Origin: Caldifarciminota bacterium
Lineage (GTDB): Bacteria; Hydrothermota; Hydrothermia; UBA1063; CAJXJZ01
Direction of reading: 5' to 3'
Assembly: GCA_026986775.1 (NCBI GenBank)
Contig: JALSNX010000004.1
Span: 133,622 to 197,593 of the forward strand
DNA length: 63,972 nt
The position numbers and the translations under genes were made by a program. Positions within the stretch are counted from its first letter, which is position 1, and each line of letters starts with the position of its first letter. The notes under the pieces are model-generated. The model was not told the DNA's origin. It did no database searches and saw nothing but the letters and a program-made list of their open reading frames with translations. Positions 34,611 to 58,371 of the stretch are shown one piece after another.

Positions 34611-34639
34611 TTGACAAAACTCCCCCCCCCCATTATAAT
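34611..34639 (+). promoter_or_regulatory. Poly-C promoter P1 (upstream of the C25 protease)
   Basis: Perfect TTGACA (34,611-34,616) and TATAAT (34,634-34,639) with a 17-base spacer containing ten consecutive C. The ~90 bases upstream, including ATGATTAAGTAATC, GAACATGTAAC and CATAGTTTCAACT blocks, are shared with P2 and P3. Slippage of the C run would change spacer length and promoter strength. Confidence 0.85.
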
Positions 34640-34720: not shown

Positions 34721-37078
34721 ATGAGTAAATTGCTAATGTTCCTGATGCTAAATAGTGTGCAATATATTGTGGATACAATAGATATTCAATACAGTCATTT
34801 TAGCATTTATACAGAGGGAGAATATACGCATGTTCACTATTCTGAAGGAGAAAACATGTGGGTGAATCCAGGGAGTCCTTCTCTTCCTGAACTTGTTTAC
34901 TACTATATTATACCTCTTCAAAGTGTGCCTGTAAGAGTTACCCATGAAATCCTTGCGGATACGTTTATAACATTGCACAATAAAGTTTTTCCTGTTCAAC
35001 AACCTGTGAGATTATGTGAAGAACACACAGCCCACAGTAAATTTATTGTCCCTGATACATGCATTTATAACAAAAATGCATATTTTCCAGAATCCCCATT
35101 ACAAATAGCAGATGTGGGATATATGGATGGAGCTAAGATTGTAAAAATTAGATTTTTCCCTGTACAATATAATCCTGTAAAGCAGAATTTACACATAATT
35201 CTCAAAACAAAGATAATCTTACATTTAAAAAGTAGTGTGTATAATTCTGAGCTAAATCTTCCGCAGGTTAGAAATCCGTATTTACAAAAGATATATACAG
35301 ATTACATAACCTATCTTGTCTCCAACCCGCAGGATATTACCAGTTTTTATTACGCACCATCGCTGTTCGTACCAGGTGATACATCTTATGTGGAGTATGC
35401 TATCATAACTAGGGAAAATCTTGTTAATGCCGTAAAGCCGCTTGAAGAACATTTAAGAAAGATGGGATTTGTGTGTAAAACATTTACTGTGTGGAGCATT
35501 ACACATAGCATAGGAGCAATTGGCAGGGATGCTGCAGAGAAAATTAAGAATTTTTTAAGAATGAAGTGGCAAAGTTATGGTCTTGTTTTTGTTCTGTTTG
35601 TGGGTGACGATGATATGGTACCCTTTAGATACTGTCATGTAAAAAATAATTATGACAATGAGGCCTATGTTATACCATGCGATTTGTATTTCTCAGATTT
35701 AACAGGGAATTGGGATGTAGATGGTGACATGAGATTCGGAGAGCCAGAGGACTCAGGAGAAGTATATCCAGAAGTTTTTGTAGGAAGAATAACAGTTAGA
35801 GATTCTTGTGAAATACGTAATTGGTTGGAGAAACTCCAGTCCTATCAAATGGAACCTTATACTGAAGGAATTACCAGTGCATACTTTGAGTATTTAAGCG
35901 AATTCTCACCTGCTGATTTATTTGGCTGTTTTCCAGAGTTCTGGGCAAAAACAGGCAGAAGTGAGCTATCTGCCGGTGATGTAATACATGATTTAAACAA
36001 TGGATACGGTATGGTTTTTCAATATGGACACGGAAGTCCGTATTCCTGGATGACAAAAAATGACAATGGAGATGATTACATTATAAGCACACCTTCTTAT
36101 GGAGACCCATATCATGGTTTATGGGAACTTTCAAATAGGTATAGATATCCTGTTGTTTACTCGATATCCTGTGATAATGCAGCATTTGACAAAAGGTTAC
36201 CCTTGAATACAGATACATGCTTTGCAGATGGCTGGCTGGATGCATACAGTCATAAAGGAGCAGTTACTTTCCTCGGGAATACAAGATATGGGTGGTGGCC
36301 TGGCTCAAAATTACTTAACAGATACTTTCTTGCATTTCTGTTTGATGAGAGAACTATTGAAGCAAGAGTGGGTATCATAGAGTCTTCAAGTAAAATCAGG
36401 ATGGGTTTAGATAATCAACTGAGCAGATATATCTGTTATTCCCATAACGTTTTTGGTGACCCATCTATGTCCATCTGGCGCCATCTACCAGAAAAAATTG
36501 ATGTTAAAGTTTATCCCGAGAGAATACCCGTTAAGCAGGTATCTGAAATATTTTTAAGTGCATATGCTTCCGAAAGGCCACTTGACAGTGCACTCGTTGT
36601 GTTTTATAAAAAGAATGAGATTTATAAAAGATACTTCACAGATGAAAAAGGTGAGTTGAAGGTTTTGGTAGAACCGAAAACAATAGGAGACCTTTATATT
36701 AGCGTGTTGAAATATGAGGCAAATAAAGATTTTATTCCCGGGAGAAAAGATGTCCAGGTGTATTTGCCCCGGGCAAAAGGCGAAATTACCATAAAAAGAG
36801 CCTTACGCCAGAGAAATAATGATAGGGAAAATGTGATAAAAGTGATGATAAAAACCTCCAGTTCTATACGGGAATTAGAGTTTGTTGTTAAAAAAGTGCA
36901 CAGCAGAAATCTTAAACTAAGTGTTTATAATAAAGAAGGCAGAAGGATAATTGAAAATAGGTTTAATCTATGCAAAGAAATTCATTTAGATCTTTCTGAT
37001 TTAAAAAATGGCACATATTTTATTTTGTTTGAAAATGGCAATTACAAGAGCATAAAGAAAATTATAATATCAAACTAA
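34721..37078 (+). CDS. C25 (gingipain-like) cysteine peptidase with sorting domain
   Basis: A 785-residue protein. The caspase-like C25 catalytic domain spans about residues 225-560 with the dyad His437 in QYGHGSP and Cys484 in SISCDNAAF, plus the FVGDDD strand. An N-terminal propeptide-like region (~30-215) precedes it. The end (SVYNKEGRRI, then LKNGTYFI and KKIIIS) matches a Por/type IX C-terminal sorting domain. The N-terminus is weakly hydrophobic (MSKLLMFLMLNSVQYIV), a short signal peptide. It is transcribed from poly-C promoter P1, like the RiPP precursor, so it may be co-switched and could process surface or precursor proteins. It has a GGAGG ribosome site. Confidence 0.88.
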   Translation: MSKLLMFLMLNSVQYIVDTIDIQYSHFSIYTEGEYTHVHYSEGENMWVNPGSPSLPELVYYYIIPLQSVPVRVTHEILADTFITLHNKVFPVQQPVRLCEEHTAHSKFIVPDTCIYNKNAYFPESPLQIADVGYMDGAKIVKIRFFPVQYNPVKQNLHIILKTKIILHLKSSVYNSELNLPQVRNPYLQKIYTDYITYLVSNPQDITSFYYAPSLFVPGDTSYVEYAIITRENLVNAVKPLEEHLRKMGFVCKTFTVWSITHSIGAIGRDAAEKIKNFLRMKWQSYGLVFVLFVGDDDMVPFRYCHVKNNYDNEAYVIPCDLYFSDLTGNWDVDGDMRFGEPEDSGEVYPEVFVGRITVRDSCEIRNWLEKLQSYQMEPYTEGITSAYFEYLSEFSPADLFGCFPEFWAKTGRSELSAGDVIHDLNNGYGMVFQYGHGSPYSWMTKNDNGDDYIISTPSYGDPYHGLWELSNRYRYPVVYSISCDNAAFDKRLPLNTDTCFADGWLDAYSHKGAVTFLGNTRYGWWPGSKLLNRYFLAFLFDERTIEARVGIIESSSKIRMGLDNQLSRYICYSHNVFGDPSMSIWRHLPEKIDVKVYPERIPVKQVSEIFLSAYASERPLDSALVVFYKKNEIYKRYFTDEKGELKVLVEPKTIGDLYISVLKYEANKDFIPGRKDVQVYLPRAKGEITIKRALRQRNNDRENVIKVMIKTSSSIRELEFVVKKVHSRNLKLSVYNKEGRRIIENRFNLCKEIHLDLSDLKNGTYFILFENGNYKSIKKIIISN

Positions 37079-38398: not shown

Positions 38399-38478
38399 AC
38401 TTTTAAACCTGCATAATACCTGAAAGTAATTGAAAACTATTCATTATGACATCTAATGCCTGTCTGTAAAACTCACCT

Positions 38479-38484
38479 TATAAT
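38479..38484 (+). promoter_or_regulatory. -10 box for a near-leaderless ATPase transcript
   Basis: A perfect TATAAT ends 11 bases before the ATG of the cassette ATPase; there is no Shine-Dalgarno sequence, so transcription should begin about 5 bases before the start codon. No good -35 box is visible at 17 bases. The same arrangement is at 55,737-55,742. Confidence 0.5.
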
Positions 38485-38495
38485 AAACTGTCACC

Positions 38496-39386
38496 ATGAG
38501 TAATGTTTTTATATATCTGAAGGGACTCAGGAAGGACTATAAAGGTTTCAGTGCCATAAAAGGCATAAATCTTAAAATAGGGGAACCGCAGAATATTGCT
38601 ATTTTAGGGCCAAATGGCTCTGGAAAATCAACATTGATAAAACTTCTGCCAGGTATTCTTTATCCCACCGAGGGTGAAATAAGGATTATGGGGTTTAAGC
38701 CCTATGAGAAAAGGAAGGAATATCTTATGAAAATTTCTTACCTCAATCCACAGAAAACAAGGCTTATATACGACGTTACAGGATGGGATAACATTTATCT
38801 TTTTGGTTCTGCCTATGGACTCGGGTTTAAAGAAATAAAAAGAAGAGCAGAGAAACTTGCAGACATGTTGAATATACAGCATAAACTGAATTCCTATGTG
38901 AGGACGCTCTCCTTCGGGGAGAGGGTTAAAATAGAACTTATAACAGGTTTACTCCATGAGCCACAACTGATTCTACTTGACGAGCCCTTTGTGGGGCTTG
39001 ACTTTATTTCACGAAAGACAATAAAAGAATTTTTGCTCAGCATAAAAAAACATATCATTATAACTTCTCACATGCTGGACGCAGTTTTAAACCTTGCAAA
39101 ATATGTGCTTGTTCTGAACAAAGGAGAGGTTGTATATTGTGGTGCATGGGATGAGTTGTACAGGAAGGTTGAGGGCAAAAAGACATTTGTCTTATATGTC
39201 AATGAAAGGAAGGGCAAGATTCCTGGTTTTATCAGAAGAGGTGAGTTTGAATATGTGGCACTGATAGATGAAACGAAAACCAGAAAGCTATACGATGAAT
39301 TTGCCACAAAGTCATGGGTAGAAAAGATAGAGGTTCAGAATCCCGATATAGAGGATGTAATCAGAGACTTACTGCAAAATGATTAA
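38496..39386 (+). CDS. Cassette ABC transporter ATPase (copy A)
   Basis: A 296-residue ABC ATPase: Walker A GPNGSGKST near residue 38, signature LSFGE, Walker B LILLDEP and H-loop ITSH, then a ~90-residue C-terminal extension (KTFVLYVNERKG onward). It belongs to ABC-2-type exporter ATPases (CcmA/DrrA-like) and should energise the two permeases encoded directly downstream (8-base overlap). In a RiPP locus such a transporter typically provides self-protection or export. In Walker A context it has LLPGIL where copy B has LLAGIL; Pro here is unusual but outside the catalytic residues. Confidence 0.9.
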   Translation: MSNVFIYLKGLRKDYKGFSAIKGINLKIGEPQNIAILGPNGSGKSTLIKLLPGILYPTEGEIRIMGFKPYEKRKEYLMKISYLNPQKTRLIYDVTGWDNIYLFGSAYGLGFKEIKRRAEKLADMLNIQHKLNSYVRTLSFGERVKIELITGLLHEPQLILLDEPFVGLDFISRKTIKEFLLSIKKHIIITSHMLDAVLNLAKYVLVLNKGEVVYCGAWDELYRKVEGKKTFVLYVNERKGKIPGFIRRGEFEYVALIDETKTRKLYDEFATKSWVEKIEVQNPDIEDVIRDLLQND

Positions 39387-40158
39387 GAAGATAAGGTTTT
39401 ACATCATTGTTGCGATAACTTATTTCAGGGTCTCATACTATTACAAACTCCACTTTGCAGGAATGATTTTACAGAATGTTCTCACATTCACCGTTTTGTT
39501 TTTGTTCTTTAAATGGAGTGGTGGAATTAAAGGCATGACTTCAAAGGATCTCATTACCTATTATCTTCTGCTTACTGCATTTTTCAATCACCTGATACCC
39601 ACCGTTGATATCAGTTTCTTTAATAGTTTAAGAAGGGGAAAACTTGACAGCATAATGACGCTACCAGTCAGTCTCAACGGATATTTCGTATCCATGCATT
39701 TTGAACTTCTTTTATTTAAACTTTTGATTCATGCCGTAATTTTTATCTTAATTGCCCTTTTTGTGGACATCAGGTTTCCTTCAATTAAAGGCGGCTTGAT
39801 GTTTCTTGTTGCCACATCCATTTCCTTCATATTCTACTTCATTTACAGGGTATTTTTCACCCAGTTTGCCTATTTTGTAGAGCGTGCTGATGCACTTTCT
39901 TTCTGGTCGTATTATCTATTTATGTTTTTGAGCGGAGGGTTGCTACCTTTACAGTTGTTTCCCGACACTTTCAGAAAAATACTTTATTTCACCCCGTTTC
40001 CGTATCTAATTGACTATCCCCTTGGTATCTGGTTGGACAGGTACAGTTTAAATATGCACTATCTCATGATAGCCATCTTTTATATCCTTATAATGACTGC
40101 TCTTGTTAGAATAATCAGCATAAAAGGAATAAAAAGGTATGCTGCTTACGGCGGTTAG
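39379..40158 (+). CDS. Cassette ABC-2 permease 1 (copy A)
   Basis: A 259-residue membrane protein with six predicted helices. The layout (IIVAITYFRV..., a GGLLPL motif near residue 185, DYPLGIW) resembles ABC-2 permeases of the PF06182 type, which occur as pairs next to one ATPase. It overlaps the ATPase gene by 8 bases and permease 2 by 20 bases. Sequence identical to the copy at 56,637. Confidence 0.8.
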   Translation: MIKKIRFYIIVAITYFRVSYYYKLHFAGMILQNVLTFTVLFLFFKWSGGIKGMTSKDLITYYLLLTAFFNHLIPTVDISFFNSLRRGKLDSIMTLPVSLNGYFVSMHFELLLFKLLIHAVIFILIALFVDIRFPSIKGGLMFLVATSISFIFYFIYRVFFTQFAYFVERADALSFWSYYLFMFLSGGLLPLQLFPDTFRKILYFTPFPYLIDYPLGIWLDRYSLNMHYLMIAIFYILIMTALVRIISIKGIKRYAAYGG

Positions 40159-40915
40159 AATAGTCTACGCATTGTTCAGGGTATCCATCAAAAAGGATAT
40201 TCTTTATATAAAGGATACCGTAATGCTTGTTTTATTTAATATAACAATACTCTTTATTCAGTTTGCTTTTTTCAGGTTTATCTTCGGGCATATACCTTCA
40301 ATACACTATGTAAGTTTCAACGATGCAATGTTTTTACTTGCCACACAGCAGATTATTGAAATCCTTTACTATACATTGTTTTTAAAGGGTTTTGTTGCCA
40401 TGAACAATCATATAATAGATGGTAAGTTTGATTACTTTTTGCTTATACCTGAAAAAAGAGGCCTTTTTCTCAATTTATGGGAACTTGACTTAAAAGAACT
40501 TGTGGGTATTGTGTTTCCTCTTGTTCTACTTGCAAAATACAGCCCCTTAAATTCCATAAAGAGGGTTGTAATTTACATTGTTTTGCTCCTTTTGGGACTT
40601 GGAATAAGAACATATTTTGGGATGGTAATAAGGAACCTGACTATAAGGGTGGTTAAGGTAATATCTTTACAGAACCTTGAATCTGCGCTTTTCGGTTATG
40701 CGAGTTTTCCGTATGTTATTTACAAAGGCATCTATAAATTACTGTTCATGCTGGTAATTCCAATAGGCCTTGTTGCCAATATGGGCTTTGGATATATTGT
40801 AAGAAGCAATAAAGGTATTGTAGCGATGGGACTGGTTGTTTTGATTATCCTTTGTATTCTTGCAAGAATAAGTTTCAGGTCCTTTTTAAAATTTTATGAT
40901 AGCGCAGGAGGTTGA
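40139..40915 (+). CDS. Cassette ABC-2 permease 2 (copy A)
   Basis: A 258-residue six-helix membrane protein, the second half of the PF06182-like permease pair; like its partner it has no soluble domain. Expected to form a heterodimeric channel with permease 1. Its stop is followed by a 237-base gap that holds the conserved promoter P2 and the start of the precursor gene. Identical to the copy at 57,397. Confidence 0.8.
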   Translation: MLLTAVRIVYALFRVSIKKDILYIKDTVMLVLFNITILFIQFAFFRFIFGHIPSIHYVSFNDAMFLLATQQIIEILYYTLFLKGFVAMNNHIIDGKFDYFLLIPEKRGLFLNLWELDLKELVGIVFPLVLLAKYSPLNSIKRVVIYIVLLLLGLGIRTYFGMVIRNLTIRVVKVISLQNLESALFGYASFPYVIYKGIYKLLFMLVIPIGLVANMGFGYIVRSNKGIVAMGLVVLIILCILARISFRSFLKFYDSAGG

Positions 40916-41076
40916 TATGATTATTTATTTGTAATTAATTTTCAACGGTTTTATTACTGCAACAATTAGATTATGGAACCAGAATTAAACTAAAAGATTT
41001 ATATGATTAAGTCATCAAAGGAACATGTAACACAATAAATCCATAGTTTCAACTATAATCTAAATAATACTACTTC

Positions 41077-41105
41077 TTGACAAAACATTCCCCCCCCATT
41101 ATAAT
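41077..41105 (+). promoter_or_regulatory. Poly-C promoter P2 of the precursor gene (copy A)
   Basis: TTGACA (41,077-41,082) and TATAAT (41,100-41,105), spacer 17 bases with eight consecutive C. Predicted start near 41,112. Shares the upstream blocks seen at P1 and P3 with more substitutions. Confidence 0.88.
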
Positions 41106-41113
41106 ATTTACAT

Positions 41114-41125
41114 CACCCTGGGGTG
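41114..41125 (+). promoter_or_regulatory. Palindrome at the predicted transcription start
   Basis: CACCC-TG-GGGTG, a 12-base inverted repeat just after the -10 box of P2. It recurs at P3 (54,216-54,227) and in copy B (58,372-58,383) but not at P1. It could be an operator or a 5' mRNA hairpin. Confidence 0.5.
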
Positions 41126-41152
41126 TGCAAAAAAATAAAAAGGAGGAATAAA

Positions 41153-41278
41153 ATGTGGGGAAAAATTGACATCATCAACGCAAGTGGACAATCTGTAATT
41201 ACCGGTATCCCAGGGGGACATTTTGATCATCATGCTGATGGACATGCAGATATGCATGCTGATGCATCTGTAAAATAA
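41153..41278 (+). CDS. His/Asp-rich RiPP precursor peptide (copy A)
   Basis: A 41-residue peptide with a strong AAGGAGG ribosome site 7 bases before the ATG. Residues 1-20 are leader-like (Trp at position 2, hydrophobic IDII and VITGI patches). Gly21-Gly22 could mark leader cleavage. The remaining tail, HFDHHADGHADMHADASVK, has six His and four Asp with the repeat H-A-D occurring three times and no Cys, Ser (except near the end) or Thr. It lies directly before a radical SAM/SPASM maturase and exporters. It matches no RiPP precursor class that I recognise; the nearest analogy is the His-Xaa-Ser repeat (HxsA) type. Modified residues and final product are unknown. Confidence 0.85.
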   Translation: MWGKIDIINASGQSVITGIPGGHFDHHADGHADMHADASVK

Positions 41279-41295
41279 ATAAAAAATAATAAGCG

Positions 41296-41310
41296 GGAGG
41301 CGCCTCCTTT
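41296..41310 (+). terminator. Intercistronic palindrome, possible attenuator
   Basis: GGAGGCGCCTCC followed by TTT, 17 bases after the precursor stop and 22 bases before the maturase start. Partial terminators between precursor and maturase are common in RiPP operons and raise precursor dosage. The hairpin is short. Confidence 0.45.
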
Positions 41311-41331
41311 CAGGTAGTCAGGAGTGATGTT

Positions 41332-42723
41332 ATGAGCACGAACTCGTTGATCAGGTTGAAGGATTCTATAAAAATTATTATGAATGATAAGTATCCTGAT
41401 GTTCGGTTATATATAGAACCGAATAGTGGCTACTGGCTTTTCATTGAACGAGAACACTGGAAAATTATGGATAAATTAATTCATGGGGTAGATAAGGAGA
41501 CATTGATGAAGAATTACGGTAATCTATTTAATATATTAAGCACGAGTAGGTTTCTGAATGACAGTGCGGATGTCTATTTAAACGTTTTAAAAGACAAATT
41601 TGGACTACTCATATTGCATTTTGCTGATGGATGCAACCTCAGTTGTAAATACTGTTTTGTCAATGCTCCTTCAGGGAGGCACAACATAATGGATATTTCA
41701 ATAGCGATAAAAGCTATAGAAAATATGGTAAATACCAGTGATAACTTCAGTATAGAATTTAATGCGGGTGAACCATTTTTATATACAGGATTTATAGAGA
41801 AAGTTATTGAATATGTAAAAAAACATTATACTGGGGAGAATATTAGATTCTATGTCCAGACAAATGGGACTTTAATTACTCGTAAAATAGTAAATTTTAT
41901 CAAAAAATATGAAATAAAAGTGGGGGTGAGTATTGATGGTCCAGCAGAAGTCCATGATAAGTTCAGGATATTCCCCAATGGACAGGGAAGTTTTGTTCAC
42001 GTAGTGAAGGGGATAAATATTCTTAAAGATAATAAAGTGCCTTTCGGGGTTTTAAGTGTTATTACTGATCCAGATGACCTGCGAAAATCTTTTGATTTCT
42101 TTGTTAAAAAAGATATAAGATATGTTAAATTTAATATTTTATTTCAGCGGACCAGAACTGAAAACAGCAATACATCCAGAATAAACCAGCTAAAACTGGC
42201 GAAAGCTCATTGTGAAATTTTCCGTGAAGCACTAAATCTTTACAGAAATGGAAAGTACATTTTTCTCAGTAATGTAATTGCTATGTTAAAAAATATTATA
42301 CTCCCTGAAAAGACTTACATGTGTATGAAATCTCCTTGCGGAGCAGCGAGAAATCAAATATCTATAGACTGGAAGGGATTTATATACCCCTGTCATAGAT
42401 TTGTTGGTGTAAAGGAGTTTTCCATGGGCCATGTTAAGGATTATAATGATTACAAAAATTTATATTTGGGTTCACAACAGTTAAGAGACCTTTTAAACAG
42501 AAATGTGGACAGGATAGATAAATGTAAAAAATGTCCCTTCAAGAATTTCTGCGGAGGGGGGTGTGCCGCAGCTGTGTGGGCTAAAACCCAAGATTTATAC
42601 AGGGAAAGCGATACATGCGAATATTATAAATATATGTTTGAATGTTTGTTCTGGGAGATTTATAAAAACAGGAATATAATATTGAATTATATAAATCATC
42701 AAAACCAGAAGGAGGCCAAATGA
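41332..42723 (+). CDS. Radical SAM/SPASM peptide maturase with PqqD-like domain (copy A)
   Basis: A 463-residue enzyme. Residues ~10-78 look like a PqqD-type RiPP recognition element (YIEPNSGYWLFIE, then DKETLMKNYG). The radical SAM core holds the [4Fe-4S] motif C101-x3-C105-x2-C108 (CNLSCKYC), the N-A-G-E-P SAM motif and QTNGT. The SPASM domain has Cys331, 336, 354, 398, 401, 407, 411 and 429, enough for two auxiliary clusters. Such enzymes form thioether, C-C or C-O crosslinks on precursor peptides. The precursor has no Cys, so a carbon-carbon or His/Asp-centred modification is likelier than sactipeptide chemistry. The end overlaps the barrel gene by 4 bases. Confidence 0.93.
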   Translation: MSTNSLIRLKDSIKIIMNDKYPDVRLYIEPNSGYWLFIEREHWKIMDKLIHGVDKETLMKNYGNLFNILSTSRFLNDSADVYLNVLKDKFGLLILHFADGCNLSCKYCFVNAPSGRHNIMDISIAIKAIENMVNTSDNFSIEFNAGEPFLYTGFIEKVIEYVKKHYTGENIRFYVQTNGTLITRKIVNFIKKYEIKVGVSIDGPAEVHDKFRIFPNGQGSFVHVVKGINILKDNKVPFGVLSVITDPDDLRKSFDFFVKKDIRYVKFNILFQRTRTENSNTSRINQLKLAKAHCEIFREALNLYRNGKYIFLSNVIAMLKNIILPEKTYMCMKSPCGAARNQISIDWKGFIYPCHRFVGVKEFSMGHVKDYNDYKNLYLGSQQLRDLLNRNVDRIDKCKKCPFKNFCGGGCAAAVWAKTQDLYRESDTCEYYKYMFECLFWEIYKNRNIILNYINHQNQKEAK

Positions 42724-44756
42724 TGTTGTCACTAATTCTTTTATCTTTAACTCAATTTATTATAGAGCCCGGGTTGTGTAAAAGTATAAACCGTGATAAT
42801 TATTTTGAAGGTGCAATCTTGAAAAAATGCACTCCGGTCATATTGAAGGACTTTCATATGTTTTCACCCCAGAAAAACTCACCCCCTTCCGACTCTACAA
42901 AACTGTTTATTTACAGAACTAAAGATGGTTTACTTTATGTCTTCCAGAATTATGCAAAAAATCTGAATGCCATAAAAAAAACGGTGCTCAAAAGAGATGT
43001 TGATCTAAATAAAGTGGATGATTACGATGCCATTTTTATTTCATCCGAAGAGGATATATCAAACATTTATGTGTTTTTCGTTAATCCTGCTGGCACGCAG
43101 AAAGATTTACTTGCGCTAAACAAAGGAAATGGTGGGGCCGAATGGGATGGTGATTGGGAGGCAGATGCAAAAATTACTACATACGGGTGGAGGGCCTCTT
43201 TATTTATCCCGTATTCGGACCTGCCCCCTTCAAAGACAAACAGATGGAGAATAAACTTTCTGAGAAAAAACAGAAGTATAAATCCATCCGAATTGTATGT
43301 TTTCTATATGCCTTCAACTGACAATATACTGGACCTGAGTGGGGCGCCTTTACTAAAAATAAATAACGTATCAATCCAGCCAAAATTTATCTTTTTAAAC
43401 CCGTATTTTCTTGGGAAAATACTTGAAGATGGACAGGGGAATGGAGTAATAGAAAAAAAGGCCGGGTTTGATCTGGATATATCTACAAGAAGTAAGACAT
43501 TTAGGCTTTTTACTTCCCTTAGACCTGATTTTAATTTTATAGAGGCCGATGAGGAACACATTATTTTTGACGATTATGGGTATTATCTCAATGAAAAAAG
43601 GCAATTTTTCTTGATGAAACAAGAATTATACAACAATGCACTTTTTAAAACCATATATACAAGGAAAATAGACAGTTTTGATTTCGGAACAAATGTATAT
43701 TTTATGCCATTTAATAGAATAGAAATAAACACATTTGTGCTCCAGAGAGATATGGGAAGTGATGGTTCTGGAAAAATAGCAGATTATGCTGGAATTTTAA
43801 AATATAGTGCCAGAAACTTCAATTTGCAGTTAAATATGAGTGGTGAAGGTAGAAATAGGTGTTATGATTTTATATCTGGTGGGTATTTCTTAAGTGTTAA
43901 TGCATTTCTTCAGGTAAGCAGGTATAATAACCTGACAGCAAAATCCCTTGAGATATCAAGAAATAATGATGGCCCAGGTGTTAACTGGTATGCAGGTTTT
44001 CTGGATATTCCTCCTGATTTTAATCCTCCTCTTGGATACCTGCTTATTCCTAAAAATGCTCATGGATTTAAGAGGATTCAGGGTAACGTATCTTACAGAA
44101 AATACTTAAGAAATGACGTGCTTAACTATTTAGAGCCAGCCATTGGGATTTTGAAAGAAAGTGATAAGAATAACAAACCATGGCGTGATATAGTGACTGG
44201 AAACATTGAATTAGATGGTAAGATTGGCCGTTTAGAATATGCAACTTCTGTAATTCTTACACTGGAGAAGAAAATAAGTGATGGTGATACTTCAAAATAC
44301 TACAATAATTTTACCCAGGGAATGTATATTATCCTGAGAAATGAAAATGGTAATTCATCCTTGAGTTTTTCAATTAATACGGGAAGATATCAGGGTGAAA
44401 ATCTTCTCTACCCGAGCGCAAGTCTCTTTTTCCGTCCTGCTGATAATCTTAATATGAGTATCTATGCGGCTTCCATGAGAATGGGAAGTGAAAGTGTTAG
44501 AAAACTTGTTTATTCTCGTATAGGGTGGAAAATCAGTAAAAAAGCACACATGTCCAATTTTGTTCAATGGAGCAATAAATATGGAGAACTTTTACTGAAC
44601 TTAATATTCCAGTATAGACTGAATTCCCGCACATATCTGTATGTAGCAGTGAATGAAATTCACAGACTTACAAATGAGGATATAAAACACTCATCTATAG
44701 GCTTAATACTCAAAGGTATAGCTATAAAAATGACGTATAACCTCGGTATATTGTAA
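42720..44756 (+). CDS. DUF5916-like outer-membrane barrel (copy A)
   Basis: A 678-residue protein with a signal peptide (~1-12), a degenerate CBM9-like domain (~30-200, WDGDWEADAKI, NFLRKNRS) and a large beta-barrel. The family hinge is recognisable as RPDFNFIEADEEH followed by NEKRQFFLMKQELY. It is a relative of the chromosomal protein at 14,069. Its fixed place between maturase and inner-membrane exporter suggests an outer-membrane exit or receptor for the modified peptide. This coupling is inference; no such role is established for the family. Confidence 0.78.
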   Translation: MMLSLILLSLTQFIIEPGLCKSINRDNYFEGAILKKCTPVILKDFHMFSPQKNSPPSDSTKLFIYRTKDGLLYVFQNYAKNLNAIKKTVLKRDVDLNKVDDYDAIFISSEEDISNIYVFFVNPAGTQKDLLALNKGNGGAEWDGDWEADAKITTYGWRASLFIPYSDLPPSKTNRWRINFLRKNRSINPSELYVFYMPSTDNILDLSGAPLLKINNVSIQPKFIFLNPYFLGKILEDGQGNGVIEKKAGFDLDISTRSKTFRLFTSLRPDFNFIEADEEHIIFDDYGYYLNEKRQFFLMKQELYNNALFKTIYTRKIDSFDFGTNVYFMPFNRIEINTFVLQRDMGSDGSGKIADYAGILKYSARNFNLQLNMSGEGRNRCYDFISGGYFLSVNAFLQVSRYNNLTAKSLEISRNNDGPGVNWYAGFLDIPPDFNPPLGYLLIPKNAHGFKRIQGNVSYRKYLRNDVLNYLEPAIGILKESDKNNKPWRDIVTGNIELDGKIGRLEYATSVILTLEKKISDGDTSKYYNNFTQGMYIILRNENGNSSLSFSINTGRYQGENLLYPSASLFFRPADNLNMSIYAASMRMGSESVRKLVYSRIGWKISKKAHMSNFVQWSNKYGELLLNLIFQYRLNSRTYLYVAVNEIHRLTNEDIKHSSIGLILKGIAIKMTYNLGIL

Positions 44757-44773
44757 AAAATCAGTTTTGAATA

Positions 44774-46498
44774 ATGAAAATGAAGAGGGGAAAATACGTC
44801 TCTATAATAAGATACATTTTAATTAAAAACAAAATCACTGTATTCTTAATAGTGTTCTTTACTCTACTCAGTCTTGGATTTCAATTCCCGATGCCTTTAT
44901 TGAGTAAATATGTATTTGATAATGTAATAATACCAGGGAAATCAGAACTCATGAGGGTCGTTATAATGCTATTTTCTATTTACCTTATAGGAAGACTTAT
45001 AAGTGTGTATTTTAAAAACAAATTACTTCTTAATTTTAAAAGCAGGACTTCTTGTAACCTTAGAATCCGGATTTTTGAGAGCTTGTTGCTTTCTCGTATA
45101 AAATCTATGGAAGTATACCAATCTGGTTATCTCGCAGAAAGACTGCATCAGGATAGCGATGAAGTAAGTAGATTTCTTGGTGATTCTGTGACTACACTTA
45201 TTGAGAGTATTCTATTGTTCGCAGGAGGAGCTATATTATCATGGAAAATTTCACATAAACTTGCTTTAATATCATACATGATGTTACCACTTTATGCAAT
45301 TAGCATAAAAGTCTGGGGTAAAAGACTTTACGAGCAACAACAAAACTTTAGAGATACCCGATCCAGGTCTTATAATAGCGCGAGTGCGTATTTAAAAAAT
45401 ATTACTTATATAAAGAGCCTTCCTTTTCCTCAAGAGCTCATAAAGATGTTTGAAAAGTATAGTTTATTATTACTCAAAAGTGAGAGGAGTGTCCTTAACA
45501 CTTCATTACTCGCCTCTCTAACTGTTCAGACAATAGGATTTATCTCCCCCGTGATAATACTTATTTATGGCGCTTATGAAGTAATTAATTCCAGGCTTAC
45601 AGTAGGAGGATTGATTGCCTTTAACTCATTTTTAGGATATATGTTTAATCCAGTCAAAAATTTCGTAAATATAAACCTTTTATATCAGAAAGGTAAAGCT
45701 TCGTTAGATAAAATTCTGGAATTTGTGTCTTTACCGGTGGAAGAAAGTGATCTTGATGAAATATCGGAATCTAAAATCCAGAATTTTGATATATTGTTCA
45801 ATAACGTATCATTTTCACATTACGGGCATGAAGAAAACAAAATTGTATTCAGTAATTTGAATCTTTATATACCGCATGGGAGTTTCACTGTAATAAAGGG
45901 CAGATCAGGTGGAGGCAAGACAACCCTGTTTAAGTTGTTATTAAGAATTTATGACCCTGAATATGGTGGTGTGTTAATTGGTAACAAGGATATAAAGACA
46001 ATTCCTTTACAAACGTTACGGAATATGATAGGTTATGTACCTCAACATCCTGTACTTTTACCGGAAACCATTGCAGATAATTTGAAGATTATAAATCCGC
46101 ATGTTCCTATAGACAGGCTAAATAAAGTTCTGAGGTTAGCCTGTTGTGAATTTGTGTTTGGCCTGGAAAGAGGAATTTATACAAAAATAAATGAAATCAC
46201 TATGAACTTTTCGGGAGGAGAATTGGTTCGTATTAATCTTGCCATGGCACTTCTGAAAAATCCTAAAATACTCTTACTGGATGAGACACTGGCACATTTT
46301 GACTTTGATACAAAACTCTGTGTTCTAAATAATATTTTATTGTTAATTGTTCGAAATAATACTACAGTTTTACTTATTACACATGAGGATATAGGAGATC
46401 TTCTTAAAAGTTTACTGGTAAAGGATGAATTCAAACAAATACACCTGGTTAATATAGATCTTGATAAATTGATGCAGCAAGGGATTTATAAAAAATAG
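44774..46498 (+). CDS. Peptide-exporter ABC protein without C39 domain (copy A)
   Basis: A 574-residue half-transporter: six-helix membrane domain (~20-300) fused to an ATPase domain with Walker A GRSGGGKT (376-383), signature FSGGE (479-483), Walker B LLLDE and an H-loop His537. It resembles bacteriocin/lantibiotic exporters but starts directly with the membrane domain, so it has no C39 peptidase to cut at the Gly-Gly of the precursor; the leader must be removed by something else or retained. The ATPase domain is somewhat diverged (FSGGE for LSGGQ) but complete. Confidence 0.9.
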   Translation: MKMKRGKYVSIIRYILIKNKITVFLIVFFTLLSLGFQFPMPLLSKYVFDNVIIPGKSELMRVVIMLFSIYLIGRLISVYFKNKLLLNFKSRTSCNLRIRIFESLLLSRIKSMEVYQSGYLAERLHQDSDEVSRFLGDSVTTLIESILLFAGGAILSWKISHKLALISYMMLPLYAISIKVWGKRLYEQQQNFRDTRSRSYNSASAYLKNITYIKSLPFPQELIKMFEKYSLLLLKSERSVLNTSLLASLTVQTIGFISPVIILIYGAYEVINSRLTVGGLIAFNSFLGYMFNPVKNFVNINLLYQKGKASLDKILEFVSLPVEESDLDEISESKIQNFDILFNNVSFSHYGHEENKIVFSNLNLYIPHGSFTVIKGRSGGGKTTLFKLLLRIYDPEYGGVLIGNKDIKTIPLQTLRNMIGYVPQHPVLLPETIADNLKIINPHVPIDRLNKVLRLACCEFVFGLERGIYTKINEITMNFSGGELVRINLAMALLKNPKILLLDETLAHFDFDTKLCVLNNILLLIVRNNTTVLLITHEDIGDLLKSLLVKDEFKQIHLVNIDLDKLMQQGIYKK

Positions 46499-46499
46499 C

Positions 46500-46757
46500 A
46501 ATACCACACCCAGAAAACTTTTAACCCTAATTTCCCTATCGTTAACCTTAAATCTCGCTCATAAAACCCATTCGCCTCTACTCTGTCGCCATCCTTAAAT
46601 ATAAATCTCTCTCCGCTACCATCAAAGCATTCAATAACTCCTCTAATATCCCTATTATCGTGATGTTCTCTCCTGCCTGCATCCTCTCTATGTAATGATT
46701 CGCTACCGCACTTATATGCTCTTCTACTGGGCTCTTTTCTCTCCTCTTACTCCCCAT
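46500..46757 (-). pseudogene. IS256/Mutator-type transposase remnant (copy A)
   Basis: On the minus strand an ATG at 46,757 with a GGAGGAGG site opens a 59-codon frame (stop at 46,578) that resembles the N-terminus of Mutator-family transposases (LLNALMVAERD). After one base shift the frame continues as NGFYERDLRLTIGKLGLKV, the usual next segment of these enzymes, then stops matching at ~46,500. So only the first ~85 codons, with a frameshift, remain. It abuts the end of the cassette. The bases AATTGTGTAAAC on the minus strand near 46,814-46,828 may be part of its terminal repeat. Confidence 0.7.
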
Positions 46758-47643: not shown

Positions 47644-48135
47644 CTATGCAACATTAGACGGATAACCAGACATATACCTATCAACACCGGTTATATCGTA
47701 GTTTTCTTTGTTTTGCGCAGTTCTTTTATCTGGATTGTCTAATATATACGTTTCAATAGATGTATTGAAAATAAAAGATATTGAACTGTATTCTGCAGGT
47801 TTTCCAGTATCTGAAACCAATATATACACATATTTTTCAGGAAGCTTAATGTTTAAGCTAAGTTCAGCTCCAAGCGCCTTTAAATATTTCCAGATAGATT
47901 CTATTTGATGGTCATAGTTAGCATTTTCCAATCTTGAAACCCAGGATTGACTTACACCTAACCTTTTAGCAACTTCTTCCTGGGACAATCCTAAACTTTT
48001 TCTAATCTTTACCATAGCAAGAGTTATGTTCATCCTTAAAGTGTCTTCTTGCCTGATTTGTTCTTTTTCCTTGATTCCTTTCGTGGCGTTTTTTAGTACC
48101 TTAAATATATTTACCGCGCCTCTTTTTTTACTCAT
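47644..48135 (-). CDS. HigA-like XRE antitoxin
   Basis: A 163-residue protein with a helix-turn-helix at about residues 38-92 (IRKSLGLSQEEVAKRLGVSQSW region) typical of HigA antitoxins that repress their own promoter. A ~65-residue C-terminal extension follows, ending ...RYMSGYPSNVA; in TAC modules an extended C-terminus is the chaperone-addiction region recognised by the SecB-like partner. Its start codon overlaps the stop of the frame-restored toxin (TAATG). Confidence 0.85.
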   Translation of the reverse strand: MSKKRGAVNIFKVLKNATKGIKEKEQIRQEDTLRMNITLAMVKIRKSLGLSQEEVAKRLGVSQSWVSRLENANYDHQIESIWKYLKALGAELSLNIKLPEKYVYILVSDTGKPAEYSSISFIFNTSIETYILDNPDKRTAQNKENYDITGVDRYMSGYPSNVA

Positions 48136-48614: not shown

Positions 48615-49121
48615 TTAACTTAACACCGTTAACAGCACTTTTAGTAATATATAAACCCCTACGGTTAAGGGTAACAGGTCATATACCTTGCTCACATACT
48701 GAAATTTCTGATTTGCTACAACTGAATTAGCTATAATTTGGTCTTTCAGGTCATCCTGAAAATCATCTTGATTTGCCTCTCTGAACTTTTTCAGGTTATT
48801 GGCTATATCACCCCAGAATATAATTGATACATAATCGTCTTTTTTAAGTAATTTTTTAGGGTCTATTCTGGGTTTTACCACCCTGGTAAAATAATAGAAG
48901 AACTTTACGATTAAACAGATCATCCACCCTAATAATAGAACCAGAGCAGTGAATAAAATACAATTAGACCCATAATGTTTTTGCAAAACATGCCATATCT
49001 CAGGAAAATCTTTCACAAGGAATCCCGTTAACACAACATAAAAGGCCAATAAAAAATTGGCCTTACTATCAGCCATCTTAATCTGGTCTATCACATAAGA
49101 TAGGTGTTTCCACCGGTCCAT
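48615..49121 (-). CDS. Pycsar-type membrane effector (DUF5706/PycTM-like)
   Basis: A 168-residue protein with two helices typical of PycTM effectors: residues ~18-36 beginning ADSKANFLLAFYVV, and ~55-76; then a soluble helical domain with FWGDIA and DQIIANSVVANQKFQYV, followed by a third helix near the C-terminus. DUF5706 proteins are the membrane effectors of Pycsar anti-phage systems: on binding cCMP or cUMP they disrupt the inner membrane. The gene starts one base after the stop of a nucleotide cyclase gene, the standard Pycsar arrangement. This gene appears intact. Confidence 0.82.
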   Translation of the reverse strand: MDRWKHLSYVIDQIKMADSKANFLLAFYVVLTGFLVKDFPEIWHVLQKHYGSNCILFTALVLLLGWMICLIVKFFYYFTRVVKPRIDPKKLLKKDDYVSIIFWGDIANNLKKFREANQDDFQDDLKDQIIANSVVANQKFQYVSKVYDLLPLTVGVYILLKVLLTVLS

Positions 49122-52376: not shown

Positions 52377-54038
52377 ATGAAAGAAATTAAAAAGTTATTT
52401 TACATTTCACGGCTTGTTCCGGGATTTTATCTATATCAGTCTGTTCTACTATTTTTTGCTTTCCTGATAACTTTAAGCACTCTGATTGAGCCTGTTTTCA
52501 TTAAAGAGCTCATAGATAAGGTAATTCCATCTAAAAATGGTGCAATGCTTTTGAAGTTTGTTGTTCTACTGCTTTTTCTATATTTACTAAGGCAGGTCTT
52601 TGATTCTATTTTTTACTATATTCAAACCCACCTGGAAGGAAAACTCTATACCAGAATACAACATGTCCTGCTTGAGAAGGCAACACATTTGCCTTATAGA
52701 TACTTTCTGAAAAAGCAAAAAGGCGATATGTTAACGCTTCTCAATGAGGATATCCATATTATTGAGAACTTTTTGAGTAACCTGGTTGTTATATCCATAA
52801 GAAGGGCTATATATCTTGTTGTTGCAGTTGTTTTTCTTGTTTATCTGAATTTGAAAATAACAATTATTGCAATTCCTTTAACTTTTCTGGTTCCCGTTCT
52901 TCTGAAAATTTATAATAAAAAAATTAAAGAGCAATCAAAATTATTGAGGGAATCTATTACTTCCATTATGAACCTTATTCAGGATTTTGTAAATCATCTC
53001 TCTTTAATACTTGCGTGGAGAATAAGAAACTTGATATTAAAGGAACACAAGAATAGAGGGAATAAATATGTGGATTTAAATGTTAAACTCTATTTATTTC
53101 GCGCAAAAGGTGGTATTCTTGCAGAGTTTGTAGTTCGTATAGTAGAGGTTCTTATAGTATTTGGCCTTGGTGGTTATGATGTTATAAAAGGCAGGTGGAC
53201 GCTTGGTTCACTTATTGCGTATTACACATATGTAAAGATGCTCCAGCCACAGGTCGTTGGACTGTTTAATCTTGGTCTGTCCATTAGCAGTATATCTGCT
53301 TCCATAAATAAAATTCATGACTTTTTGATAATAAGAACGGATTCAGAATTGAGGCATAAAAAGACAGCCACAATAGAAAGTAATGTTATTGTAAAAGCAG
53401 AGCACTTAAAATTTGTGGTGGATAATAGATGCATTTTAAATGATGCAAGTATGGTGATAAAGAGGGGTGAAAAGGTTTTGTTAAAAGGACAAACAGGGGC
53501 CGGTAAAAGCACCTTAATATATCTGATTCTGGGACTTTACAGCCCAACTTCAGGCAGGATAAGACTTTTTGGTGAAGAGCCGATGTTGTTAGATGATAAA
53601 GTTTTTCAATACAGTATAGGTTTTGTTCCTCAAGAGCCCGTGTTATTTGAAACATCAATTTTAAACAACATTGTGATGGGCAGGGATTACAATGAAGAGT
53701 GGGTGGAAGAGGTTCTGAAAATAGTATCTATTTATGATGCAGTAATAAAATTACCAGCAGGTTTAAACAGTGTTGTGGGAAAAGACGATATAAAACTTTC
53801 AGGAGGAGAGATACAGCGTCTTGCCCTTGCAAGAGCACTATATACAGAGCCTGAGTTTTTAATTCTTGATGAAGGCACAGCACACCTTGACAGTAAAACC
53901 GAGAGAGAAATCTTGAATAGAATCCTGTCAAAAGAAAGAACAATCCTTTTTGTCTCCCACAGGGTAAATGTGGAGCAAGACTATGAATGGGATAGAATTT
54001 ACAGGGTACATAATAAAGTACTTGAGGAGGTGGGATAG
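52377..54038 (+). CDS. Peptide-exporter-type ABC protein
   Basis: A 553-residue half-transporter: membrane domain (~15-290) and ATPase with Walker A GQTGAGKST, Q-loop VPQEP, canonical LSGGE signature, Walker B FLILDEG, D-loop LD and H-loop VSHR. No C39 peptidase. It is a paralogue of the cassette exporter at 44,774. Its last ~100 bases and the following promoter region are duplicated at 34,373, showing that this gene type existed upstream as well. Start at the ATG near a weak AAGGATG site. Confidence 0.9.
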   Translation: MKEIKKLFYISRLVPGFYLYQSVLLFFAFLITLSTLIEPVFIKELIDKVIPSKNGAMLLKFVVLLLFLYLLRQVFDSIFYYIQTHLEGKLYTRIQHVLLEKATHLPYRYFLKKQKGDMLTLLNEDIHIIENFLSNLVVISIRRAIYLVVAVVFLVYLNLKITIIAIPLTFLVPVLLKIYNKKIKEQSKLLRESITSIMNLIQDFVNHLSLILAWRIRNLILKEHKNRGNKYVDLNVKLYLFRAKGGILAEFVVRIVEVLIVFGLGGYDVIKGRWTLGSLIAYYTYVKMLQPQVVGLFNLGLSISSISASINKIHDFLIIRTDSELRHKKTATIESNVIVKAEHLKFVVDNRCILNDASMVIKRGEKVLLKGQTGAGKSTLIYLILGLYSPTSGRIRLFGEEPMLLDDKVFQYSIGFVPQEPVLFETSILNNIVMGRDYNEEWVEEVLKIVSIYDAVIKLPAGLNSVVGKDDIKLSGGEIQRLALARALYTEPEFLILDEGTAHLDSKTEREILNRILSKERTILFVSHRVNVEQDYEWDRIYRVHNKVLEEVG

Positions 54039-54177
54039 CATTTACACTCCTTTAAGTACAATCTTTTGACATGCAATCATAGGTTAAGACATACTATATT
54101 TATATGATTAAGTAATCAAACGAACATGTAACACAATGATTCTATAGTTTGAACTGGAATTTAAATAATTAAACTTC

Positions 54178-54207
54178 TTGACAAAACATCCCCCCCCCCA
54201 TTATAAT
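54178..54207 (+). promoter_or_regulatory. Poly-C promoter P3 (upstream of the lipoprotein)
   Basis: TTGACA (54,178-54,183) and TATAAT (54,202-54,207), with ten consecutive C and an 18-base spacer, one base longer than P1 and P2. Upstream ~140 bases closely match those of P1; downstream the palindrome and AAAAAAATAAAA leader match P2. Confidence 0.85.
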
Positions 54208-54252: not shown

Positions 54253-55083
54253 ATGAAGAAGATAAAGATTGTAGTAGTTATAGTGGGAATAATAACAATA
54301 ATGTCTGCTGGCTGCATAAAAAATAGGAGTCAAACCCCAGAAGCCTCTATAAACTGGTTGGAATACCAGGGAATAACATCATTTATGGATAATATTTCAC
54401 AAAAATCGCTACTATTTACAAAAATCTGGGATAACATTAAAAGTGAGAATATAAATTTATCCCACGCAAATGAAGTTAAGTTTTTTAAAAGTGTTGACAA
54501 AACTGGCGCTACAGTAAATAATATAATAGGAGTTATGAATGATGATACTGTAATACTCAGTTATTGGGTTTATGAAGACTATGATACTCTTCATGGGTTT
54601 GTTAATGTTACATCCCATATTGGATTGAATACAATGAGTGTGAAACTTTTTACTAATGAGGAAGGACAGTTGTCAGAATATGGAGAAATTGCTGGTCTTA
54701 AAGATACAGTAATTTATAAAGGAACGGTTCTTAATGATTCAATTTATAATGTTGAGTGGACATATCTTCCCTCAAAGGTAAGTTTCAAAGGCAGCATCAA
54801 TATACAGGATACAGCTATATCTGAACTAATTGTCAAAATCAACAAGTACATCGCTGATAACGATTTCGTTAACAAAAATCTTATCCCAATTCCTGTGGAG
54901 ATGGTGGAAATTATGGCAGAACAGGTTGAAAACTCCAAAGCTAATCAGGCCGTTATAAGTGCGGTAGGTGCAGCAGGAGTGGGATTGGCTCTGGGGTTAA
55001 TTTATCCTCCAAGCATGTGGGTTATTGGCTGGGGTGCATCAACTGTCTATGGATTAATCAATGCTTATGTTACATCACACTGA
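54253..55083 (+). CDS. Putative lipoprotein with glycine-rich hydrophobic C-terminus
   Basis: A 276-residue protein with a signal peptide ending in a lipobox-like MSAGC (Cys21). The central region is beta-rich (repeated D-T-V and Y-K-G strands). The final ~45 residues form a glycine-rich hydrophobic stretch (VGAAGVGLALGLIYPPS, then GWGASTVYG) that could insert in a membrane. It is transcribed from promoter P3 and followed 13 bases later by a small membrane protein gene. No family recognised; a secreted toxin/immunity or surface protein are both possible. Confidence 0.6.
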   Translation: MKKIKIVVVIVGIITIMSAGCIKNRSQTPEASINWLEYQGITSFMDNISQKSLLFTKIWDNIKSENINLSHANEVKFFKSVDKTGATVNNIIGVMNDDTVILSYWVYEDYDTLHGFVNVTSHIGLNTMSVKLFTNEEGQLSEYGEIAGLKDTVIYKGTVLNDSIYNVEWTYLPSKVSFKGSINIQDTAISELIVKINKYIADNDFVNKNLIPIPVEMVEIMAEQVENSKANQAVISAVGAAGVGLALGLIYPPSMWVIGWGASTVYGLINAYVTSH

Positions 55084-55753: not shown

Positions 55754-56644
55754 ATGAGTAATGTTTTTATATATCTGAAGGGACTCAGGAAGGACTATAA
55801 AGGTTTCAGTGCCATAAAAAGCATAAATCTTAAAATAGGGGAACCGCAGAATATTGCTATTTTAGGGCCAAATGGCTCTGGAAAGTCAACATTGATAAAA
55901 CTTCTGGCAGGTATTCTTTATCCCACTGAGGGTGAAATAAGGATTATGGGGTTTAAGCCCTATGAGAAAAGGAAGGAATATCTTATGAAAATTTCTTACC
56001 TCAATCCACAGAAAACAAGGCTTATATACGATGTGACTGGGTGGGACAACATTTATCTTTTTGGTTCTGCCTATGGACTCGGGTTTAAAGAAATAAAAAG
56101 AAGAGCAGAGAAACTTGCAGACATGTTGAATATACAGAATAAACTGAATTCCTATGTGAGGACGCTCTCCTTCGGGGAGAGGGTTAAAATAGAACTTATA
56201 ACAGGTTTGCTCCATGAGCCACAACTGATTCTACTTGACGAGCCCTTTGTGGGGCTGGACTTTATTTCACGAAAGACAATAAAAGAATTTTTGCTTCATA
56301 TAAAGAAGAACGTAGTTATAACTTCTCACATGCTGGACGCAGTTTTAAACCTTGCAAAATATGTGATTGTTCTGAACAAAGGAGAGGTTGTATATTGTGG
56401 TGCATGGGATGAGTTGTACAGGAAGGTTGAGGGCAAAAAGACATTTGTCTTATATGTCAATGAAAGGAAGGGCAAGATTCCTGGTTTTATCAGAAGAGGT
56501 GAGTTTGAATATGTGGCACTGATAGATGAAACGAAAACCAGAAAGCTATACGATGAATTTGCCACAAAGTCATGGGTAGAAAAGATAGAGGTTCAGAATC
56601 CCGATATAGAGGATGTAATCAGAGACTTACTGCAAAATGATTAA
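55754..56644 (+). CDS. Cassette ABC transporter ATPase (copy B, hybrid)
   Basis: A 296-residue paralogue of the protein at 38,496 with eight or so amino acid differences, all before residue ~206: for example AIKSIN for AIKGIN, LLAGIL for LLPGIL, QNK for QHK and HIKKNVV for SIKKHII. After that the genes are identical. A patch around 56,028-56,046 has several clustered silent changes. The 5' part therefore has a different history from the 3' part, as expected at a recombination junction. Confidence 0.9.
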   Translation: MSNVFIYLKGLRKDYKGFSAIKSINLKIGEPQNIAILGPNGSGKSTLIKLLAGILYPTEGEIRIMGFKPYEKRKEYLMKISYLNPQKTRLIYDVTGWDNIYLFGSAYGLGFKEIKRRAEKLADMLNIQNKLNSYVRTLSFGERVKIELITGLLHEPQLILLDEPFVGLDFISRKTIKEFLLHIKKNVVITSHMLDAVLNLAKYVIVLNKGEVVYCGAWDELYRKVEGKKTFVLYVNERKGKIPGFIRRGEFEYVALIDETKTRKLYDEFATKSWVEKIEVQNPDIEDVIRDLLQND

Positions 56645-57416
56645 GAAGATAAGGTTTTACATCATTGTTGCGATAACTTATTTCAGGGTCTCATACTATT
56701 ACAAACTCCACTTTGCAGGAATGATTTTACAGAATGTTCTCACATTCACCGTTTTGTTTTTGTTCTTTAAATGGAGTGGTGGAATTAAAGGCATGACTTC
56801 AAAGGATCTCATTACCTATTATCTTCTGCTTACTGCATTTTTCAATCACCTGATACCCACCGTTGATATCAGTTTCTTTAATAGTTTAAGAAGGGGAAAA
56901 CTTGACAGCATAATGACGCTACCAGTCAGTCTCAACGGATATTTCGTATCCATGCATTTTGAACTTCTTTTATTTAAACTTTTGATTCATGCCGTAATTT
57001 TTATCTTAATTGCCCTTTTTGTGGACATCAGGTTTCCTTCAATTAAAGGCGGCTTGATGTTTCTTGTTGCCACATCCATTTCCTTCATATTCTACTTCAT
57101 TTACAGGGTATTTTTCACCCAGTTTGCCTATTTTGTAGAGCGTGCTGATGCACTTTCTTTCTGGTCGTATTATCTATTTATGTTTTTGAGCGGAGGGTTG
57201 CTACCTTTACAGTTGTTTCCCGACACTTTCAGAAAAATACTTTATTTCACCCCGTTTCCGTATCTAATTGACTATCCCCTTGGTATCTGGTTGGACAGGT
57301 ACAGTTTAAATATGCACTATCTCATGATAGCCATCTTTTATATCCTTATAATGACTGCTCTTGTTAGAATAATCAGCATAAAAGGAATAAAAAGGTATGC
57401 TGCTTACGGCGGTTAG
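56637..57416 (+). CDS. Cassette ABC-2 permease 1 (copy B)
   Basis: Protein identical to the 259-residue permease at 39,379; same 8-base overlap with the ATPase gene. Partner of the permease at 57,397. Confidence 0.8.
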   Translation: MIKKIRFYIIVAITYFRVSYYYKLHFAGMILQNVLTFTVLFLFFKWSGGIKGMTSKDLITYYLLLTAFFNHLIPTVDISFFNSLRRGKLDSIMTLPVSLNGYFVSMHFELLLFKLLIHAVIFILIALFVDIRFPSIKGGLMFLVATSISFIFYFIYRVFFTQFAYFVERADALSFWSYYLFMFLSGGLLPLQLFPDTFRKILYFTPFPYLIDYPLGIWLDRYSLNMHYLMIAIFYILIMTALVRIISIKGIKRYAAYGG

Positions 57417-58173: not shown

Positions 58174-58334
58174 TATGATTATTTATTTGTAATTAATTTT
58201 CAACGGTTTTATTACTGCAACAATTAGATTATGGAACCAGAATTAAACTAAAAGATTTATATGATTAAGTCATCAAAGGAACATGTAACACAATAAATCC
58301 ATAGTTTCAACTATAATCTAAATAATACTACTTC

Positions 58335-58363: not shown

Positions 58364-58371
58364 ATTTACAT

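Follow-up and report, generated by a model that had tools for sequence, protein, structure and literature searches.

The locus

The DNA examined here (the window; 63,972 nt of contig JALSNX010000004.1) belongs to a genome of 2.18 Mb, 98% complete, whose host falls in the candidate phylum WOR-3. It carries a cassette that is real and probably functions as a system for a ribosomally synthesised and post-translationally modified peptide (RiPP), in which a gene for a short His/Asp-rich precursor is followed by genes for a radical SAM/SPASM maturase, a DUF5916-type protein and an ABC exporter, and preceded by an ABC-2 transporter. All genes named in a preliminary description of this DNA were recovered at the same coordinates, including the ABC-2 ATPase and its paired permeases upstream of the peptide gene, each of which has a Pfam match. 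The features of the first copy, all on the forward strand, are as follows.

38496-39386, +, ABC-2 transporter ATPase, copy 1 (Pfam ABC_tran, 6.3e-27; homologue in sister cassette L056, 32%)
39379-40158, +, ABC-2 permease 1, copy 1 (PF01061, weak, 0.0013; homologue in L056)
40139-40915, +, ABC-2 permease 2, ABC2_membrane_6, copy 1 (PF06182, 3.6e-20)
40997-41076, +, conserved upstream element with dyad TGATTAAGTCATCA and ACATGTAACACAAT, within the 113-nt repeat D1
41077-41105, +, promoter TTGACA-17-TATAAT with a C8 tract (41090-41097) in the spacer (sequence pattern)
41114-41125, +, dyad CACCCTGGGGTG in the 5' untranslated region; variants CACCTCGAGGTG, CACCTGCAGGTG and CACCCCGGGGTG at sister promoters (sequence comparison)
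41140-41146, +, Shine-Dalgarno sequence AAGGAGG of the precursor; same AAAAAGGAGG context in most sister precursors
41153-41278, +, precursor of 41 aa, leader plus HFDHHADGHADMHADASVK (open reading frame and translation; identical in copy 2)
41296-41307, +, palindrome GGAGGCGCCTCC between precursor and maturase; strong hairpin at the same place in several sister loci
41332-42723, +, radical SAM/SPASM maturase with a N-terminus like a RiPP recognition element (RRE) (PF04055, 2.4e-17; PF13186, 8.4e-6; NCBIfam; AF2; Foldseek)
42720-44756, +, DUF5916-type protein of 678 aa, CBM9-like front and predicted outer-membrane barrel (homology, signature)
44774-46498, +, ABC exporter (Pfam ABC_membrane and ABC_tran)

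The preliminary description missed that 38454-46714 is repeated at +17258. The whole cassette unit (38496-46498) recurs at 55754-63756, with 24 base differences between the copies, all within 38562-39108; from 39109 onward the two are identical, precursor included. Because copy 2 reaches the contig end, an assembly artefact in its extent is possible. The left junction and the ATPase sequence differ between the copies, and these differences argue for two genuine copies of at least that part.

55754-58173, +, ABC-2 trio, copy 2 (the 24 base differences lie at positions matching 38562-39108 of copy 1)
58335-58363, +, C8 promoter, copy 2 (promoter pattern comparison)
58411-58536, +, precursor, copy 2
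58590-59981, +, maturase, copy 2 (sequence comparison)
59978-62014, +, DUF5916-type protein, copy 2 (sequence comparison)
62032-63756, +, exporter, copy 2; the contig ends 216 nt further (63756-63972)

The probable precursor and its maturase

The 41-codon gene (full peptide MWGKIDIINASGQSVITGIPGGHFDHHADGHADMHADASVK) had been noted to have a strong ribosome site, which is confirmed by the AAGGAGG listed above. The gene is real, and it probably encodes a RiPP precursor for the enzyme downstream. The core consists of four H-x-D-x tetrads (HFDH HADG HADM HADA) with SVK at the end, and not of three HAD units as described before. A Gly-Gly in the precursor is missing from most sister precursors, and it is not evidently a processing site, as Pfam finds only ABC_membrane and ABC_tran in the exporter and no C39 peptidase; cleavage at Gly-Gly by the exporter is unsupported for the same reason. 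The element between precursor and maturase is only a 12-bp palindrome, and strong hairpins are seen instead at the corresponding place in L053, L056, L061, L059, L065 and L093. A hairpin after the precursor gene is usual where precursor is made in excess of enzyme.

In the maturase, the cysteines of the CX3CX2C motif for the SAM cluster (C101, C105 and C108) and those for the SPASM auxiliary cluster (C354, C398, C401, C407, C411 and C429) are invariant across 22 aligned sequences, the SPASM assignment being accompanied by the PF13186 match. The best NCBIfam model is PapB (209.5 bits, cut-off 340), followed by anaerobic sulfatase maturase, nif11 and others. The enzyme does not fall within a known family of three-residue cyclophane-forming enzymes (3-CyFE), as the scores for GrrM/OscB (125.6 of 310 bits), YhhB (117.1 of 445) and AmcB (98.3 of 425) are all under cut-off; the score for the His-Xaa-Ser (Hxs) maturase HxsB (146.8 of 370) is likewise under its cut-off. 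Sister maturases score 91-151 bits with PapB and favour the TIGR04463, CefB, Clo7bot, geopeptide, CcpM and mycofactocin models.

A PqqD-like front end had been proposed for this enzyme. No Pfam model detects a PqqD-like or RRE domain there, but the AlphaFold2 (AF2) model (mean predicted local distance difference test, pLDDT, 72.5; predicted template modelling score, pTM, 0.74) shows three strands followed by helices in residues 13-71, the RRE topology, at medium local confidence (pLDDT 56-78 over residues 1-80). Foldseek aligns the model end to end with CteB, which carries a PqqD-like domain, and with TigE; matches to anSME and to the ChlB-leader complex are partial. The closest relatives in 100 genomes share about 31% identity over the catalytic core. 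A scan of the genome contigs with this single protein found no relatives, and an alignment of nine maturases was too divergent to serve as a search profile.

Sister cassettes

Genome-wide counts for the genome of the window (G000) rest on pattern searches. Nine maturase matches were found in it at E <= 0.001, and two more (L056, L061) came from reading the loci. The approximately 11 maturase loci are the two described here, L056, L058, L061, L053, L063, L059, L064 and L065, together with L062, where the cassette is broken. In 10 of the 11 an open reading frame (ORF) of 31-48 aa with a Shine-Dalgarno sequence stands ahead of the maturase, and most of the loci lie behind a promoter that contains a C run. 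The peptides are diverse, and all except the His/Asp peptide contain Cys. Some can be followed between species. The peptides of L058 and of L090 in G002 have in common CSCGG(I/V)CI..IQ.WYESNPKK, and the codon differences between the two genes comprise 16 that are synonymous and 14 that are not; those of L061 and of L093 in G003 have SLHKD(G/N)CC, a weaker case. CGCFL(T/V)xC peptides occur in G000, G005, G007 and G027 (three families), each ahead of a maturase, an ABC exporter and a DUF5916 gene; the E-values of this search are partly circular, the model having been built on peptides of the same genomes, and the conservation claim rests on the alignment. By comparison of their sequences the sister small ORFs are shown to be genes, and the RiPP-type system first proposed for the window is well supported by this family of cassettes.

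The sister cassettes resemble that of the window in having a precursor, a SPASM maturase, an ABC exporter or ABC-2 pump and often a DUF5916 protein, but differ in their Cys-containing peptides. No published description of them was found in the literature collection searched. The expectation that the small gene is conserved beside maturase homologues was borne out for the sister family; the His/Asp peptide itself is an orphan among 147 WOR-3 genomes. Across these, the H-x-D triple pattern was found at the DNA level in this genome and at two unrelated-looking sites, in G143 and G144; among the collected loci no small ORF with HxD repeats was found besides this precursor. An NCBIfam scan of ten precursors gave nothing meaningful.

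Some loci are of interest in their own right. L154, L155, L156 and L064 (WOR-3 class) represent an undescribed CGCFL(T/V)xC precursor family, twice present as two tandem copies. L062 (8694-9944) has a C11 promoter and a broken maturase with the precursor lost, an instance of cassette turnover. At L098 (6700-6794), stop codons seemingly interrupt the precursor that in G001 corresponds to that of L064, while the maturase is intact.

The poly-C promoter

The promoter ahead of the peptide gene reads TTGACA-AAACATTCCCCCCCCAT-TATAAT, with a spacer of 17 nt, and the homopolymeric C tract in this spacer had escaped the preliminary description. The repeat D1 just upstream occurs at four places in the window and in six copies in the genome, with none in the reversed control. 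A 14-bp dyad, TGATTAAGTAATCA and ACATGTAACACAAT, lies upstream of six C-tract promoters in G000 and is a possible operator of a shared regulator. Two related promoters are found in the window.

34611-34639, +, C10, spacer 17, ahead of a C25-peptidase protein with a type IX secretion system (T9SS) tail (34721-37078)
54178-54207, +, C10, spacer 18, ahead of a lipoprotein-like gene (54253-55083)

These two genes have only the promoter type in common with the cassette. Over the genome, the genes downstream of C-tract promoters are RiPP cassettes, lipoprotein-like genes and the C25 peptidase with a T9SS tail. The genome has 14 instances of the strict promoter pattern and none of the reversed one; the poly-G form is found nowhere in the genus. 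The C-tract pattern is present in each of the four genomes available for the genus and in none of five others from the order. The genome contains 21 tracts of eight or more C, of which 15 are non-coding, and all 15, with lengths of 8-12, lie in spacers of the -35/-10 type (one, at a contig edge, is without the start of its -35, and one has TATACT as -10). Each of the six coding tracts has a length of exactly 8, and the nine tracts of at least 9 are without exception in promoters. Spacers range from 14 to 21 nt across the genus, and identical flanks, TTGACAAAACAT-Cn-TGTATAAT, enclose tracts of n = 9, 11 and 11.

The C tract is probably a slipped-strand switch for phase variation, as tracts at this location with lengths that vary (8-12) follow the pattern of contingency loci such as opc. 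In the poly-C promoter of Neisseria opc, 11 versus 12 C sets the level of expression (PMC3447861). The two are alike in having the homopolymer in the promoter spacer, at lengths near the switching range. They differ in that the promoters described here, for which switching is proposed, belong to an uncultured phylum and stand ahead of operons that encode modified peptides or surface proteins. The tract could instead have a fixed role in the spacer, regulatory or structural, and not switch, in keeping with most of the promoters being near the optimal 16-18 nt spacing. This appears unlikely in view of the opc precedent (PMC3447861) and of tract lengths that differ (8-12) between identical flanks, and the promoter of L059, in which the tract is interrupted (CCCCCTACCC), still heads the same kind of operon.

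Upstream of the L064 precursor, a sister promoter (TTGATT...TATAAT) on the reverse strand has a T19 run in its spacer, and its G001 counterpart, L098, has C7. Another WOR-3 genus has two identical TTGACA...G13...TATAAT sequences (G012:C50:325-357 and C51:9522-9554), perhaps the same device with another base. The segment 34377-34631 is a decayed ABC exporter tail, 89% identical to 53944-54198; each of the two precedes a C-tract promoter, a sign that cassettes have been exchanged around the shared promoter. The starts of contigs G000:C27 and G001:C57 lie a few bases from a C-tract promoter, and the contig of the window ends in the second cassette copy.

The DUF5916-type protein, a predicted barrel

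The 678-aa protein had been described as a DUF5916-like barrel. A Pfam search with it gave no match to PF19313 (DUF5916), but it is homologous (BLASTP, E <= 1e-5) to proteins of L065, L061 and L064, and the paralogues in L061, L064, L065 and at 14069-16195 of the window pass the PF19313 cut-off. In the alignment it retains the signature PDFxxIEAD...EKRxFF. Most members of the family end in a short alternating stretch that closes with an aromatic or aliphatic residue, as outer-membrane barrels do. A profile search of the PDB with the barrel family found no solved relative by sequence, and an hhalign comparison with the 14069-16195 protein was not used, being circular (that protein is in the alignment).

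The dedicated barrel remarked upon earlier is not peculiar to this locus, since DUF5916 recurs with maturases across WOR-3. Of 99 DUF5916 genes in 60 WOR-3 genomes, at least 11 have one of the listed maturase matches no more than 9 kb away, against an expectation of 1.6 (p 8e-7, approximately 7-fold enrichment), a rough figure that assumes random placement in 2-Mb genomes. The cassettes pair the DUF5916 protein with an ABC exporter or an ABC-2 pump, and that of the window has both. As the barrel is the constant partner while the type of pump varies, this arrangement suggests that the barrel may provide the outer-membrane step of peptide export. Papers on DUF5916 as an envelope family were not found in the literature collection searched.

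Beyond the exporter, 48615-49121 (-) encodes a Pycsar-effector-like membrane protein (PF18967, PycTM), near a helix-turn-helix gene at 47644-48135.

Likely chemistry of the peptide

The preliminary description correctly noted that the tail has no Cys. There is none in the peptide, so the sactipeptide class is out, and thioether chemistry was ruled out on the same ground. Among the closest precedents are the triceptides, in which links are formed from residue i to i+2: C2(His) to C-beta(Ala) by HaaB, C2(His) to C-beta(Arg) by YhhB, C3(Tyr) to C-beta(Asp) by YxdB, and Trp to C-beta(Asn/Asp) by OscB (PMC11002830). Like the systems of XncB, OscB, HaaB, YhhB and YxdB, the window has a radical SAM/SPASM maturase beside a short precursor that repeats an aromatic-x-x motif; HFD, HAD, HAD and HAD all conform to the triceptide core motif aromatic-X2-X3, and precedents exist for His in the first position (HaaB, YhhB) and for Asp in the third (YxdB, OscB) (PMC11002830). 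It differs in that no H-x-D member appears in that review (PMC11002830), the maturase is under the GrrM/OscB, YhhB and AmcB cut-offs, and the DUF5916 barrel and poly-C promoter are not among the described features. Since both partners in H-x-D have a precedent and the motif comes four times over, and since PapB activates C-beta of Asp, the same atom, we predict up to four His-Asp cross-links, C-C or C-N, each of which would lower the mass by 2 Da. Iterative modification of the tail, as first suggested, is plausible.

A variant of ranthipeptide chemistry would use the same carbon differently, with the beta carbon of Asp activated as in PapB and a His nitrogen attacking in place of Cys sulfur to give a C-N link. 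The PapA/PapB system shares with the window repeated Asp-containing units and the SPASM architecture, and PapB is the best NCBIfam model at a score far over the 91-151 bits of the sister maturases. PapB itself targets Asp C-beta and accepts Cys-Xn-Asp with n = 0-6 (PMC9413430), and a His cross-link made by a radical SAM enzyme is known in dynobactin (PMC10206099). Yet 209.5 bits is under the PapB cut-off of 340, the peptide without Cys can have no Cys-Xn-Asp/Glu motif, and PMC9413430 reports no His nucleophile for PapB. We regard this variant as improbable.

More doubtful again is a metal-binding product, with the H-x-D array as a metallophore, the DUF5916 barrel as its outer-membrane receptor and the radical SAM step a minor one (e.g. 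epimerisation). The His and Asp residues are spaced as metal ligands could be, and the barrel is encoded within the cassette. In sister cassettes, however, the same type of barrel accompanies Cys peptides that lack such an array, and it is thus not dedicated to the array. That the small ORF is an attenuation leader sensing the supply of His or Asp is hardly credible and was rejected: it is short, His-rich and followed by a palindrome, but very different Cys-rich peptides stand at the same position in sister loci, with amino acids conserved between species.

A proposed phase-variable RiPP cassette

On balance we favour a phase-variable RiPP cassette as the explanation of the whole locus. A sigma-70-type promoter, in which the distance between -35 and -10 is set by the C run, would transcribe the genes for precursor, maturase, DUF5916 protein and ABC exporter. 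The RRE-like front of the maturase would bind the leader, the exporter would carry the product out of the cytoplasm, and the barrel would take it across the outer membrane or present it there, while the ABC-2 pump encoded just upstream may protect the producer. Slippage in the C tract would give a population in which some cells are ON and others OFF. The likely chemistry is cross-linking by a radical SAM enzyme that acts on an unusual substrate, with a putative outer-membrane partner. The analysis itself establishes the genes, the sister cassettes with their conserved precursors, where the C tracts lie and how their lengths spread, and the association of DUF5916 with maturases. We infer the cross-links themselves, switching in living cells, the roles of barrel and pumps, and any antagonistic function.

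Several points weigh against this explanation. C tracts of at least 8 and at least 9 are not over the first-order Markov expectation (31.6 and 7.7), and the argument rests on their location and on the longest tracts, those of at least 10 numbering 7 against 1.9 expected. The precursor has no homologue in the 147 WOR-3 genomes, and no relative of the maturase above about 31% identity over the catalytic core was found. The maturase is under every NCBIfam cut-off, with PapB closer than the cyclophane families. The AF2 model of the barrel is unusable (pLDDT 29.8), and DUF5916 is common in WOR-3, with most copies (88 of 99, among the matches listed) away from maturases.

A wider reading is possible, although we hold it only tentatively: an arsenal of about 11 radical-SAM peptides, mostly on independent slipped-strand switches, by which clonal cells would differ, with DUF5916 as a new outer-membrane outlet and a consecutive array of His-Asp cross-links unseen before. 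Within the literature collection searched, no paper was found that joins phase variation, RiPPs and radical SAM enzymes. If the reading is true, the use of simple sequence repeats for bet-hedging, known above all from pathogens that live with a host, would extend to the making of natural products in an uncultured phylum. A function would be proposed for DUF5916, and the H-x-D tetrads would be a new, testable substrate motif for radical SAM cross-linking enzymes.

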